DNA from: Brevundimonas bullata
GTDB taxonomy: Bacteria > Pseudomonadota > Alphaproteobacteria > Caulobacterales > Caulobacteraceae
NCBI RefSeq assembly: GCF_014207965.1
Contig: NZ_JACHLM010000005.1
Location: forward strand, 124,001 to 188,000
Reading direction: 5' to 3'
DNA length: 64,000 bases
The translations under genes were made by a program, and so were the position numbers. This document shows, in pieces, positions 22,509 to 63,726 of the stretch. The stretch's first letter is position 1. Each line of letters begins with the position of its first letter. The notes under the pieces are model-generated. The model was not told the origin of the DNA. It made no database searches and saw nothing but the letters and a program-made list of their open reading frames with translations.

Positions 22509-23366
22509 TTATTTCAGCTGACAGATGTCGAGCTTGTCCATGTCAGTGTAGTCGAGGTTCTCGCCGCCCATGCCCCAGATGAAGGTATAGTTCGACGTGC
22601 CCGCGCCCATGTGGATCGACCACGGCGGGCAGATCACGGCCTCGCCGTCGGCGACGACGATGTTGCGCGACTTGTCCGGCTCGCCCATGAAATGGAAGAC
22701 GCGGTCGTCCTCGCCCAGGCCGAAATAGAGGTAGGCTTCCGAGCGGCGGTCGTGAATGTGCGGCGGCATGGTGTTCCACACCGAGCCCGGCTTCAGCACC
22801 GTCACGCCCAGCAGCAGCTGGCAGGACTTGACCTTGGCCGGGACGATATACTGGTAGATGGTCCGTTCGTTGGACGTCTCCAGCGCGCCCATCTCCAGCG
22901 GCACAGCGTCGGCGATGGAGATCCTGGTCAGGTCGTAGCGGGCGTGGGCCAGGGTGGAGACCAGGTAGAATTTGGCGGGATTTGCCGCATCCTTCGAAGT
23001 GAAGGAGACCTCGACCGAACCCATGGGCACATAGGCGCCGTCGCGGAAGTCCAGCTCGAGCGTTTCGCCATCGACCGTGAGCAAGCCGGCGCCGCCGATA
23101 TTGACCACGCCCAGTTCGCGCCCCTGGAGGAAGGGCGCGCCGGCCAGCGACGCTGGGACAGAATGGGTCGGCAGGGTCAGGGGGGCGTCGGTCGGGGTCG
23201 CGCCGCCCATGATCATCCGCTCGTGGTGCGAATAGTTCAGGCTGATCTTGCCCGGAACGAACAGGCCCTGGATCAGGTAGCGATCCCGCAGCTGCTGGTT
23301 CGTCGCGCCGTCCATCATGTCGGGATGGGTGGCCTGATAGACCTTGTCGTACATCGGATCGTACAA
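22509..23366 (-). CDS. kduI: 5-keto-4-deoxyuronate isomerase KduI
   Basis: Isomerises 5-keto-4-deoxyuronate, the open form of the unsaturated uronate released by lyases, to 2,5-diketo-3-deoxygluconate. A cupin enzyme of 285 residues. [31 protein letters not shown] (the His/Glu metal ligands), [19 protein letters not shown] and the terminal [11 protein letters not shown] match the family end to end. The likely start is TTG at 23366, with GGGAG six bases upstream. An ATG at 23354 lacks a ribosome site but would lose only four residues. It is the first gene of the kduI-kduD-kdgK operon, with an island operator 69 bp upstream shared with a divergent RpiB-family gene. Confidence 0.93.
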
Positions 23367-59339: not shown

Positions 59340-60542
59340 ATGACCCAGAGCACCAATACGGCCTTCTACGACCGCATCTCCGCCGAACTGACCGACATTG
59401 ACGCCCAGGGGCTGACCAAGCCCGAGCGCGTCATCGCCTCGCGCCAGGGACCCGTGATCTCGGTGAACGGTCGCGACGTCCTGAACTTCTGCGCCAACAA
59501 CTATCTCGGTCTGGCCGGCGACGAGCGCGTCACCCAGGCGGGCATCAGGGCGATGGAGAAGTGGGGCGCCGGCACGGCCTCGGTCCGCTTCATCTGCGGC
59601 ACGCTGGAAATCCATAAGGAACTGGAACGCGCCGTCGCCGACTACCTCGGCTTTGAAGATGCGATCCTGTTCGCCGCCGCCTTTGACGCCAACGGCGGCA
59701 TCTTCGAGCCCCTGTTCACCGAGGCCGACGCCATCGTCTCGGACAGCCTGAACCACGCCTCGATCATCGACGGCGTGCGCCTGTGCAAGGCCAAGCGCTA
59801 TCGTTTCGCCACCTCGGACATGGCCGACCTGGAGGCCCAGCTGAAGCAGGCCCGGGCCGACGGCGCGCGCGAGATCATCATCGCCACCGACGGCGCCTTC
59901 TCGATGGACGGCTACATCGCCAAGCTGAAGGACATCCGTGCCCTGGCCGACCAGTACGGCGCCCTGATCATGGTCGACGACTGCCACGCCACCGGCTTCA
60001 TGGGCGACAAGGGGCGGGGTTCCTACGCTCACTGCGGCGTCGAGGTGGACTTCGTCACCGGCACCTTCGGCAAGGCCCTGGGCGGCGCCATGGGCGGCTT
60101 CATCTGCGCCAAGGCCAATGTCGTGGCCCTGCTGAAGCAGCGCGCGCGGCCCTACCTCTTCTCCAACGCCCTGGCCCCCGCCGTCTGCGGCTCGTCGCTG
60201 GAGGCCATCCGCATCGCGGCGGGCGAAGAGGGCGACGCCCTGCGCAAGCAACTGTTCGCCAACGCCGCGCGCTTCCGCTCGGCCATGACCGAGGCGGGGT
60301 TCACCCTGCAACCGGGCGAGCACCCGATCATTCCCGTCATGCTGGGCGACGCCAAGCTGGCGCAGGACATGGCGGCGCGGATGCTGGAACTGGGCGTCTA
60401 TGTGATCGGCTTCAGCTTCCCGGTGGTCCCGCGCGGCCAGGCCCGCATCCGCACCCAGATGTCGGCGGCGCATACGTTTGAGCAGATCGACGCCGCCGTC
60501 GCCGCCTTCATCCAGGCCGGCAAGGAGTTGGGGGTCATCTGA
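59340..60542 (+). CDS. kbl: 2-amino-3-ketobutyrate CoA ligase (glycine C-acetyltransferase)
   Basis: Cleaves 2-amino-3-ketobutyrate with CoA to glycine and acetyl-CoA, the second step of threonine catabolism. A PLP-dependent alpha-oxoamine synthase of 400 residues. NFCANNYLGLAGD, GTASVRFICGTLEIHKELE, MVDDCHATGF (the PLP-pairing Asp) and VTGTFGKALGG with Schiff-base Lys245 are diagnostic. GCGGAGAAATC precedes ATG 59340. Its usual partner tdh lies 2.1 kb downstream on the same strand, separated by a minus-strand exosortase module, so the pair cannot be a simple contiguous operon here. Confidence 0.96.
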   Translation: MTQSTNTAFYDRISAELTDIDAQGLTKPERVIASRQGPVISVNGRDVLNFCANNYLGLAGDERVTQAGIRAMEKWGAGTASVRFICGTLEIHKELERAVADYLGFEDAILFAAAFDANGGIFEPLFTEADAIVSDSLNHASIIDGVRLCKAKRYRFATSDMADLEAQLKQARADGAREIIIATDGAFSMDGYIAKLKDIRALADQYGALIMVDDCHATGFMGDKGRGSYAHCGVEVDFVTGTFGKALGGAMGGFICAKANVVALLKQRARPYLFSNALAPAVCGSSLEAIRIAAGEEGDALRKQLFANAARFRSAMTEAGFTLQPGEHPIIPVMLGDAKLAQDMAARMLELGVYVIGFSFPVVPRGQARIRTQMSAAHTFEQIDAAVAAFIQAGKELGVI

Positions 60543-60554
60543 CCCCCAACCGAC

Positions 60555-61205
60555 CTACGACTTCAGGCTGTCGTCGGCCATGATGACCGAGCGGCCCGCC
60601 GGATTGAGCGCAGCCCAGAGCACCACTGCGGCGACCAGCGGCGCCACCGACATGCCGATATAGCGGCCGATGATGGCGATCTGCGCCAGGATGGGGTGCA
60701 GGGCCGGTTGATCCAGCGCCTGACGCGCGGCGGCGCTGGGCGGCGCCAGGGCAGGGTTCAACTGCGCCGCCAGGTCGCCCCAGATCAGGGACGCCAGCGA
60801 CAGGATGAACAGCAGCGTCAGGACCAGGGTCGTGATGATCGCCGCCTTGAGCGGCTTCTGCGTCCGCGGCGGCGCGGTCAGGAAGGCCAGCGCCAGGGGG
60901 AAGCCCAGCAGCAGCCGACGCAGCGAGGTATGGGGCACATCGTAGGCGATGGGGACGCCGCTGCTGGTCAGCCGCGTGCCGACGCTCCAGCTCCCGTCCG
61001 CCAGCACGGCGATCTCGCCCGACAGGCCGAAGAGGCGGAAGACCAGACCCGCCAGCGGGCGCAGGGCCGCCGCAAACAGGTCCGCGCCCCACAGCCACCA
61101 GATCGGCAGCACCAGAACGAAAAGACCCAGCGACCACAGGCCGAATCGACGCCGCGCGGCCTCTTCCGGGGTCTTGGCGCCGAGGGTTTCGAACCAGGCG
61201 GCCAT
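60555..61205 (-). CDS. Exosortase H-associated membrane protein
   Basis: A 216-residue inner-membrane protein. About four hydrophobic segments: 24-43 (LWSLGLFVLVLPIWWLWG), 100-112, 121-146 and 183-202. A soluble segment between the first and second (LFGLSGEIAVLADGSWSVG; DVPHTSLRRLLLGFPL) probably faces the periplasm. Its ATG overlaps the exosortase stop (TGATG), so it is the last gene of the module. Small membrane partners next to XrtH-type exosortases are known, but their function is not established. I assign it by position and topology, not by a diagnostic motif. Confidence 0.6.
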   Translation of the reverse strand: MAAWFETLGAKTPEEAARRRFGLWSLGLFVLVLPIWWLWGADLFAAALRPLAGLVFRLFGLSGEIAVLADGSWSVGTRLTSSGVPIAYDVPHTSLRRLLLGFPLALAFLTAPPRTQKPLKAAIITTLVLTLLFILSLASLIWGDLAAQLNPALAPPSAAARQALDQPALHPILAQIAIIGRYIGMSVAPLVAAVVLWAALNPAGRSVIMADDSLKS

Positions 61206-61747
61206 CAGGCGGCTTCCTCAGCGACGGTCTTGGGCGCATTGCCCGGCTGGCGGCTCTGCCAGCGGGTCCAGAAGAAGAAGACCAGCAGGCCCTCCAGCCC
61301 GATCATCGCGTCCCAGACGTAGTGGTGGAAGAACTCGAACATCGATTCAGAGCCACGCGACAGATACAGAAGGCTGATGATCCGCAGCAGGTTGACCAGT
61401 TGCAGGGCGATCACGCCGACGGCGGCGCCGATCAGGCCGTCGCGCAGACGCCCAGGGAAGGCCAGGATGGCGGCGATCAACAGGGCGCAGACCTCGACGG
61501 CATTACAGCCCGCCAGCACCTGAACCGCGCCGTGCCCGTCGGAGAAGCGCAGGATGTCGCCTTGCGCCTGAACTCGACCGTCAAACGGCGCGAGCACTAA
61601 GGCGCAGATGTCGACCAGAAGTTGGGTGAAGGGCTGGACGAACAGCCGTTCTGCCCACGGCGTGGCCAGAACGCTGAACAGGGTGATCGCCAGCAGGGCG
61701 AACAGACCCAGATACTGGACAGCAGGCGATTTGAAGAAACGCGGCAT
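61205..61747 (-). CDS. xrtH: Exosortase of the XrtH (IPTL-CTERM) type
   Basis: A polytopic membrane cysteine transpeptidase of 180 residues that processes C-terminally tagged exported proteins. The exosortase/archaeosortase triad is visible: Cys81 in AGCNAVEV, Arg122 in NLLRIISLLYL, and His141 or His142 in FEFFHHYVWD, each in or next to a predicted TM. The protein is short relative to the large EpsH-type exosortases, as expected for single-domain types. The start is ATG 61747 (MPRFFKSPAVQ); a GTG at 61792 would prepend a non-homologous stretch and overlap the upstream hairpin. Its presumed substrate, with a VPTLTEW tail, is encoded directly upstream; naming it XrtH rests on that pairing. Confidence 0.85.
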   Translation of the reverse strand: MPRFFKSPAVQYLGLFALLAITLFSVLATPWAERLFVQPFTQLLVDICALVLAPFDGRVQAQGDILRFSDGHGAVQVLAGCNAVEVCALLIAAILAFPGRLRDGLIGAAVGVIALQLVNLLRIISLLYLSRGSESMFEFFHHYVWDAMIGLEGLLVFFFWTRWQSRQPGNAPKTVAEEAA

Positions 61748-61769
61748 GGACTGTCGCCTGAAGTGCAGT

Positions 61770-61805
61770 GAAAAAAAGCAGGGGCGGACCACGAGGGCCC
61801 GCCCC
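61770..61805 (-). terminator. Hairpin between the substrate gene and the exosortase gene
   Basis: On the minus strand GGGGCGGGCC / GGTCCGCCCC (one G-U pair) with a 5-base loop, then TGCTTTTTTT. It lies just after the substrate stop and would attenuate transcription into xrtH. Confidence 0.82.
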
Positions 61806-61823
61806 GACCGTTATCTGATCCGA

Positions 61824-62435
61824 TCAGACCGTGCGGCGACGCTTGTGAATGGTCAAGGCGGCGAAACCGCCCAGAGCCGCCGTCAGCAGGATCATGGCCC
61901 ATTCCGTCAGGGTCGGGACGGGGGCGGGCGGCGGTGCATTGGTGATGGTGTAGCTCGGCATCGGCGACGGCATATCAACGGCGGCGCCGCCGCTGTTGAT
62001 CTCGAACATGGTCGGCGAATAGACGCCCTCGGTAGATGACGTCGTCACCAGCGACTTGTCGATCTTGATGCTGATGACGGCGCCGGCCGGGATGACGATG
62101 CCGTTCCTCAGTCGCAGTTGAACGCCCGAGTTCCAGGTCTGGCAGAAAACAAAGTCGCTCTGAGGCATGGTGACGCCGTTAAGCGTCGCCGTGATGTTGC
62201 TGTCGCACTGGTTGGTCGCGGCGGCCAGGACGAGCCCGTCAAACCGGGCGTAGAGCATGTGAGGCGCCGTGTTCACCAGGGTTTCGGTCGTAAACCGAAT
62301 GTCGACGTCGGTCGGTTGCGACGGAGCGGCGTTCGACAGGGTGACGCTGACGTTGGTCAGGGTTCCCGCCATGGTGGCGGTGGCGGCCATCGACAGGGCG
62401 GCCGCAGTAACGGCGGCGGCGATCATTTTCTTCAT
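61824..62435 (-). CDS. Exported protein with IPTL-CTERM-type sorting tail
   Basis: A 203-residue secreted protein and likely substrate of the adjacent exosortase. MKKMIAAAVTAAALSMAATATMAG is a signal peptide (cleavage near 23). The middle 140 residues are a beta-rich, Ser/Thr-rich domain with two cysteines (Cys77, Cys98) and no match I recognise. The tail is the classic tripartite sorting signal: a proline-rich spacer, VPTLTEW at 173-179, a hydrophobic segment (180-195), then the basic cluster KRRR (198-201). This matches the IPTL-CTERM pattern I-P-T-L-x-x-W with V for I. The start is ATG 62435; a GTG at 62465 would bury the signal. It is probably displayed on or released from the cell surface. 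Confidence 0.85.
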   Translation of the reverse strand: MKKMIAAAVTAAALSMAATATMAGTLTNVSVTLSNAAPSQPTDVDIRFTTETLVNTAPHMLYARFDGLVLAAATNQCDSNITATLNGVTMPQSDFVFCQTWNSGVQLRLRNGIVIPAGAVISIKIDKSLVTTSSTEGVYSPTMFEINSGGAAVDMPSPMPSYTITNAPPPAPVPTLTEWAMILLTAALGGFAALTIHKRRRTV

Positions 62436-62679: not shown

Positions 62680-63726
62680 ATGACCGCCACCATGAAGGCC
62701 CTGGCCAAGACTAAACCTGGCGTGGGCCTGGAACTGATCGAGGCGCCGATCCCCGTCGCGGGCGACGAGGACGTGCTGATCCGCGTCCACCGCACCGCCG
62801 TCTGCGGCACCGACATCCACATCTGGAACTGGGATGAGTGGTCGCAAAAGAACGTGCCCGTCCCCATGATCACCGGCCATGAGTTTGCGGGCGAGATCGT
62901 CGCCATCGGCAAGGACGTAGATCGCCGCCTGAAGATCGGCCAGCGCGTGTCGGCCGAGGGTCACGTCATCGACCTGAACTCCGAAGCGGCCCGCGCCGGT
63001 CACTTCCACCTGGACCCCGACACGCGCGGCATCGGCGTGAACCGCCAGGGCGCCTTCGCCGAGTTCGTGGTGGCCCCGGCCTTCAACGTGATCGAGCTGC
63101 CCGACGACGTGCCCTATGAGATCGGCTCGATCCTGGACCCCTTCGGCAACGCCGTGCACACGGCGCAGCAGTTCGACCTGCTGGGCGAGGACGTGCTGGT
63201 CACCGGCGCCGGCCCCATCGGCATGATGGCCGCCGCCGTGGCGCGCCACGCGGGCGCCCGCACCGTGGTCCTGACGGATATCAATGACTTCCGCCTGGAA
63301 CTTGCGCAAAAGGTTGCGCCTGGCGTGCGCACGGTGAACACCACCAAGGAAGACCTGCGCGACGTCATGCATGAGCTGGGCCTGAAGGTCGGCTTCGACG
63401 TGGCGCTGGAGATGTCGGGCTCGCCCATCGCCTTCAAGCAGTGCGTCGACACCCTGATCATGGGCGGCGGCATGGCCATGCTGGGCATCCCGTCAAAGCC
63501 GATGGAGACCGATTGGGGCGCGATCATCCTGAAGGCCCTGACCATCAAGGGCGTCTATGGGCGTGAGATGTTCACCACCTGGCGCAAGATGCTGGGCCTG
63601 CTGAAGGCCGGTCTGGACCTGACGCCGCTGATCACCCACCAGATGCCCTATCAGGACTTCGAGGCGGGCTTCGAGGCCATGCGCTCGGGCCAGTCGGGCA
63701 AGGTCGTCCTGAACTGGGCCGACTGA
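62680..63726 (+). CDS. tdh: L-threonine 3-dehydrogenase lacking the structural zinc cysteines
   Basis: Oxidises L-threonine to 2-amino-3-ketobutyrate with NAD. A medium-chain dehydrogenase of 348 residues, close to E. coli Tdh: VCGTDIHIWNWDEWSQ with catalytic-zinc Cys42, GHEFAGEIV with His67/Glu68, DPFGNAVHTAQQFDL, VTGAGPIGMMAAAVARH and YGREMFTTWRKM. In the lobe that normally holds four structural-zinc cysteines, the aligned positions are Asp98, Ser101, Ala104 and Asp112, so that site is lost. AAAGGGAGCACCCACC precedes ATG 62680. It completes the pathway with kbl, and a terminator follows. Confidence 0.94.
   Translation: MTATMKALAKTKPGVGLELIEAPIPVAGDEDVLIRVHRTAVCGTDIHIWNWDEWSQKNVPVPMITGHEFAGEIVAIGKDVDRRLKIGQRVSAEGHVIDLNSEAARAGHFHLDPDTRGIGVNRQGAFAEFVVAPAFNVIELPDDVPYEIGSILDPFGNAVHTAQQFDLLGEDVLVTGAGPIGMMAAAVARHAGARTVVLTDINDFRLELAQKVAPGVRTVNTTKEDLRDVMHELGLKVGFDVALEMSGSPIAFKQCVDTLIMGGGMAMLGIPSKPMETDWGAIILKALTIKGVYGREMFTTWRKMLGLLKAGLDLTPLITHQMPYQDFEAGFEAMRSGQSGKVVLNWAD

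Follow-up and report, generated by a model that had tools for sequence, protein, structure and literature searches.

An exosortase H locus of Brevundimonas bullata whose neighbouring IPTL-CTERM protein is one of several in the genome

The described system closest to the locus analysed here is that of exosortase H (XrtH) and its IPTL-CTERM tails; a search of a literature collection with few subscription journals returned no paper on XrtH, exosortase H or an exosortase together with IPTL-CTERM. Related sorting systems are covered by reports of which parts were available. In one exoproteome, 12 of 35 PEP-CTERM proteins were seen, according to the part consulted of PMC12188702. For archaeosortase A, a Cys-His-Arg set is named in the accessible part of a review, and the corresponding part of another paper gives a cysteine in the active site together with a triad like that of sortases. 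Haft and Varghese describe, in the portion available, multi-target genomes without a target gene beside the rhombosortase (PMC3237569).

We analysed a stretch of 64,000 nucleotides from Brevundimonas bullata (the window), in which three minus-strand genes lie between a kbl-like and a tdh-like gene. The original prediction had described an exported cargo protein, an exosortase and a small membrane partner overlapping it by TGATG. All three open reading frames are present as described, with the ATG of the partner overlapping the xrtH stop, and because all three proteins pass curated models the genes are not chance reading frames. The features of the locus are as follows.

59340..60542, plus strand: kbl-like gene, left flank (open reading frame; same neighbour at 6 of 14 xrtH loci), which we take to encode 2-amino-3-ketobutyrate CoA ligase
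60555..61205, minus strand: XrtH-associated membrane protein (partner), 216 aa (NF041730)
61205..61747, minus strand: xrtH, exosortase H, 180 aa (TIGR04177, TIGR04178)
61325..61327, minus strand: His141 codon (alignment of 14 genus XrtH)
61382..61384, minus strand: Arg122 codon (alignment of 14 genus XrtH)
61505..61507, minus strand: Cys81 codon, predicted nucleophile (alignment of 14 genus XrtH)
61781..61805, minus strand: terminator-like hairpin in the gap between cargo gene and xrtH, 10-bp stem (9 G-C), then a run of seven T
61824..62435, minus strand: cargo gene, exported protein of 203 aa with IPTL-CTERM tail (PF18203, TIGR04174)
61833..61925, minus strand: IPTL-CTERM tail, VPTLTEW, hydrophobic stretch and HKRRR (PF18203, 38.7 bits; G000:C5:185833-185925)
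62367..62435, minus strand: cargo signal peptide at the N-terminus (residues 1-23, ...TMA|GTL), by eye
62680..63726, plus strand: tdh-like gene, right flank (open reading frame), presumably a threonine dehydrogenase gene

Four terminator-like sites were found in the region against 1.2 expected, and the fold of the hairpin has a z-score of -2.79.

The assignment of the system to XrtH and IPTL-CTERM held, as curated cut-offs were passed for enzyme (TIGR04177) and tail (PF18203, TIGR04174). The enzyme scored 134.7 bits with the exosortase H model TIGR04177 (cut-off 86) and 45.1 bits with the superfamily model TIGR04178 (cut-off 23), and searches with the exosortase models found no second exosortase in the genome, leaving this single XrtH. 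It carries cysteines at positions 48, 81 and 87, Arg122, and histidines at 141 and 142. Cys81, Arg122 and His141, three of the residues singled out originally, are invariant in all 14 XrtH of the genus; His142, also proposed, is variable. By analogy with archaeosortase A, a catalytic role is predicted for the three invariant residues.

The partner, whose role the prediction had left open, belongs to a named family: it scored 85 bits with NF041730 (cut-off 35), 'exosortase H-associated membrane protein'. xrtH and partner are adjacent at all 14 genus loci, with coding ends that overlap in 13 and abut in one. By passing the NF041730 cut-off and adjoining xrtH the window partner matches the described family, and no difference was seen. 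Its predicted fold (mean pLDDT 85.5) places a three-stranded sheet between helices; a Foldseek comparison of the model with solved structures gave no match at E <= 0.001 (best E 1.5).

The cargo beside xrtH was likewise found to be as described, an exported protein with a VPTLTEW motif, transmembrane stretch and KRRR end, insofar as its tail passes both tail models and its start, judged by eye, resembles a signal peptide. The C-terminal end, APVPTLTEWAMILLTAALGGFAALTIHKRRRTV, scored 34.9 bits with Pfam PF18203 (cut-off 20.8) and passed NCBIfam TIGR04174 marginally, at 20.7 bits against 20.5. The mature domain of 140 residues had been said to match nothing recognised; it is not unique, since two full-length relatives, 44 and 43% identical, occur in one further genus genome, G097, on contigs other than that of the G097 xrtH, which gives a family of three. 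Both cargo cysteines noted originally (Cys77, Cys98) are kept in the two relatives. A sequence search found no solved relative up to E 10, and Foldseek gave no match for the model at E <= 0.001. This fold model, made with three sequences, has a mean pLDDT of 60.1, with blocks in residues 61-140 at 73-86, and its best structural alignments, with several proteins of the beta-sandwich type (TTHA1873, pilins, cohesins), reach Z <= 7.4. The model predicts a core of the common beta-sandwich type; because alignments at the level Z <= 7.4 may reflect the common arrangement as such, we read no function from the fold. An assignment to the midcut-by-XrtH proteins (NF033207) was rejected at 29.5 bits against a cut-off of 45, with the match confined to the tail.

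That no other tailed protein lies in the window was borne out, for PF18203 had no further match on contig C5 at E <= 10. From this the prediction had gone on to a self-contained system dedicated to one protein, a view that fails on the rest of the genome (G000; 3.69 Mb, 15 contigs, 99.99% complete). Dedication was to be refuted by many other tailed substrates in the genome, and by this test it fails: PF18203 gave 12 matches at E <= 10, seven of them over cut-off against one XrtH, and these lie on contigs C1 (one), C2 (two), C3 (three) and C5 (one, in the window). At E <= 10 the model also matched 7 of 14 control genomes, one of them over cut-off. The six tails outside the window end exported-looking proteins, are well formed and all pass the NCBIfam tail model. 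Two weaker matches are plausible, L016 (VPTTSEW) and L018 (IPSLTTW), and both fail the NCBIfam model. Among eight other clients of the genome tested, two contain Pfam domains, bacterial Ig-like in L014 and ubiquitin in L012. The bare pattern P-T-L-x-x-W in DNA, with one extra window match (22895-22912, minus strand), was discarded as a genome-wide test for tails; it is worthless alone because its 31 genome-wide matches compare with 47 for a reversed control. As a separate observation, L016 belongs with L287 (in G054) and L288 (in G124) to a small client family below the IPTL cut-off whose odd tail, VPTxxEWT-WGL..., is possibly a separate subtype.

Enzyme and tails go together across the genus. 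XrtH was over cut-off in 14 of 131 genus genomes (a fifteenth, G060, holds a fragment with three stops), the partner in the same 14, and tails in 15, namely the 14 XrtH genomes and G101; G003 has one tail match, below cut-off. Each of the 14 carries between 3 and 23 tails over cut-off. In a phylum sample of 398 genomes, our own included, XrtH and tails were over cut-off in the same six; six further genomes that match the XrtH model at E <= 0.001, below cut-off, were not counted. Fisher tests of co-occurrence, which ignore relatedness, gave p values of 6e-18 for the genus and 2e-13 for the phylum sample. Two phylum-sample genomes with XrtH, G282 and G522, gave just one tail over cut-off each, located away from xrtH, and these counts may be too low because only 20 first-look candidates were scored in that sample. 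A census by pattern, with 6 of 140 rows dropped as spurious ahead of clustering, comprised 134 tails from 15 genomes; their bodies form 39 clusters, of which 21 have a single member. It misses some tails that the model supports (in G113, 13 against 15 by model). The consensus of these tails reads [VI]PT[LM][ST]EWAMIL[LF]G..LAGGAAL.[IL]Q and then basic residues; the invariance of P and W in it proves nothing because the pattern demands both.

We compared gene order around xrtH, using gene calls from a crude ORF picker. In 6 of the 14 genomes (G000, G019, G036, G052, G054 and G092) the xrtH-partner pair sits between the kbl-like and tdh-like genes, and of these only G000 has a cargo gene between xrtH and tdh; all five relatives with the same site lack it. 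The gap measures 932 bases in G000 against 214 to 219 in G019, G036, G054 and G092, and about 300, again without cargo gene, in G052. Without the cargo gene the gap could be aligned in four of the five relatives, and in BLAST comparisons of G054 and G092 with G000 both ends matched, over 122 and 68-69 bases, with one additional match of 20 bases in G092. On this comparison of gaps, the simplest reading is that the cargo gene was gained beside xrtH in the G000 lineage. Elsewhere, a cargo gene stands immediately beside xrtH in G086, making 2 of 14 loci with G000, and in G124 a single gene intervenes. The cargos of G086 and G124 belong to another family than that of the window. The phylum-sample genomes G324 and G353, with 10 and 7 tails, each have one tail within about 2 kb of xrtH. 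Within the one genus, xrtH and partner occupy several chromosomal sites (L076-L088 and the window). These varied sites suggest that the pair moves as a two-gene unit.

Because the genome holds seven tails, all 14 XrtH genomes hold 3 to 23, five same-site relatives lack the neighbouring cargo and a hairpin stands before xrtH, we consider it highly probable that this is a many-to-one exosortase H system with one client gene beside xrtH. Clients would be exported through their signal peptides and stay in the inner membrane through their C-terminal helix. XrtH, through Cys81, Arg122 and His141, would then cut at or near P-T-[LM]-[ST]-E-W, and the new C-terminus would most likely be passed to an acceptor, so as to anchor the protein at the cell surface. 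The partner, as constant companion of XrtH, probably assists in presenting the substrate or the acceptor. The cargo of the window would be one client of several, placed beside xrtH in the G000 lineage and set off by the hairpin.

A variant in which XrtH serves many clients and the adjacent cargo is the main or a co-regulated one appears unlikely. In its favour, a cargo is adjacent in 2 of 14 loci (G000, G086), one gene off in G124 and within about 2 kb in the many-tailed G324 and G353, and such adjacency looks commoner than scattered clients would give. The terminator-like hairpin and T run that part the cargo gene from xrtH speak against it, as does the neighbour itself, whose family varies between genomes and which close relatives lack.

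The exceptions to co-occurrence bear on another alternative, that some other enzyme, rhomboid-type or not, processes the tails and XrtH merely travels along. G101 (L090, L091, L092, L221, L222, L243, L257, L268, L285) is a single contig with a completeness rating of 100% and holds 16 tails over cut-off; searches with TIGR04177 and with TIGR04178 (E <= 10) found no exosortase in it, and no partner was found. With XrtH as query, tblastn yielded just one weak hit, which covers residues 2-60 at 38% (E 0.26). Tails selected by pattern in G101 have a mean score of 80.9 against means of 55 to 89 in XrtH genomes. Inspection by eye of ORFs of at least 80 aa at the site that holds xrtH in the relative G120, beside what is presumably a ribonucleotide-reductase gene, recognised no replacement enzyme; since xrtH sites differ between genomes, this covers one site only. 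Recent loss, an incomplete assembly or another enzyme could each account for G101. Of the control genomes, none has XrtH over cut-off and one, Thermus composti, yields a tail match over the tail cut-off, so that tails, in G101 as in T. composti, can occur without a recognisable XrtH. Such tails speak for another enzyme. Recent loss of xrtH, or its absence from the assembly, fits G101 equally well, and co-occurrence otherwise holds strictly, in all 14 XrtH genomes of the genus and all six of the phylum sample; we therefore hold processing by another enzyme to be very improbable. In G060 the broken xrtH (L089:6200-6900) retains 54% identity over 106 residues with three stops and directly follows a short frame that holds little beyond a signal peptide and an altered tail (LTMSEW). 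No partner was found in this genome, nor any Pfam tail match at E <= 0.01 beyond the relic beside xrtH. These remnants suggest a joint decay of enzyme and tails.

Hardly any credence is left for an XrtH acting on the neighbouring cargo alone, for although the cargo adjoins xrtH, the 64-kb window holds no other model-supported tail and, in the part consulted of PMC3237569, rhombosortase adjacency accompanies a single target, the genome has seven tails over cut-off against one XrtH, at least three are present in 14 of 14 genus XrtH genomes, and the cargo is missing beside xrtH in 5 of 5 same-site relatives.

One client of the many-to-one system is an exported ubiquitin. In the 132-aa protein L012 (G000:C1:223677-223760; L012 1207-1602, plus strand), a signal-like segment with the last residues ...ASPAFA is followed by residues 1-71 of ubiquitin and then by VQPLAAIPTMSEWALILLGVSLAGGAAFQLQRRRLIRA. 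Its ubiquitin part is identical to the human protein at 56 of 71 positions (PF00240, 87.7 bits) and begins exactly at Met1, and the IPTL-CTERM tail replaces the Gly-Gly end. G036, G054 and G092 encode proteins of this design (63, 61 and 63 of 71), which gives 4 of 14 genus XrtH genomes with such a client (L012 with L262, L255 and L267). Scanning a collection of genome contigs with L012 yielded 166 relatives, the best 80 of which (L136-L215) were analysed; as the query carries its own signal segment the ranking is biased, and many records are MAGs. By a simple rule, ubiquitin Met1 is immediately preceded by a signal-like segment in 76 of these best 80 of 166. The 80, many of them fused to longer proteins, come from records of many bacterial phyla. 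IPTL-like tails are present in three, L136 from Cocleimonas, L138 from Thermodesulfovibrio and L144 from Desulfobacteraceae; a fourth, L154, was flagged by script and rejected. Also among the best 80 of 166, L170 bears an LPXTG-like tail (LPATG).

In the parts consulted of PMC3352274 and PMC5705921, BfUbb is an exported ubiquitin of Bacteroides fragilis, reported as a mediator of inter-strain antagonism. As far as those parts go it shares with L012 a signal peptide that ends exactly before ubiquitin Met1 and the lack of a Gly-Gly end, and differs in that L012 adds an IPTL-CTERM tail. Judged by titles and the beginnings of abstracts, the literature searched contained no paper joining ubiquitin with exosortase, and a search on bacterial ubiquitin, signal peptides and horizontal transfer returned none on exported ubiquitin. 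By analogy with BfUbb, there is a modest chance that XrtH sorts a eukaryote-type ubiquitin, among seven to nine clients, to the surface as an antagonism or mimicry protein. Such a client unexpectedly links exported bacterial ubiquitins with a Gram-negative sorting system.

In kind the window system is ordinary, XrtH and IPTL-CTERM with the standard partner. It corrects a tempting inference: a tailed gene beside XrtH does not imply a dedicated pair. Natural comparisons within the genus are provided by the apparent gain of a cargo beside xrtH, the apparent joint decay in G060 and the tails without detected enzyme in G101. With the described XrtH (TIGR04177) and IPTL-CTERM (TIGR04174, PF18203) it shares the Cys/Arg/His residues, the tripartite tail and one enzyme for several tails; nothing essential differs, apart from a window cargo that is weak in NCBIfam and a client gene beside xrtH. 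The PEP-CTERM/exosortase systems, in the accessible parts of PMC12188702 (see also PMC1569441), likewise have a C-terminal tail of motif, helix and basic end and several clients per enzyme, whereas here the motif is [VI]PT[LM][ST]EW and the enzyme, of 180 residues, is of XrtH type. Like the single-target rhombosortase genomes in the part of PMC3237569 available, the locus has a target gene adjoining the enzyme; those genomes have one target, against at least seven tails here. Measured against that same part of the report, XrtH departs from the rhombosortase pattern, since in G000, G324 and G353 a tail lies near xrtH despite the many tails in each genome.
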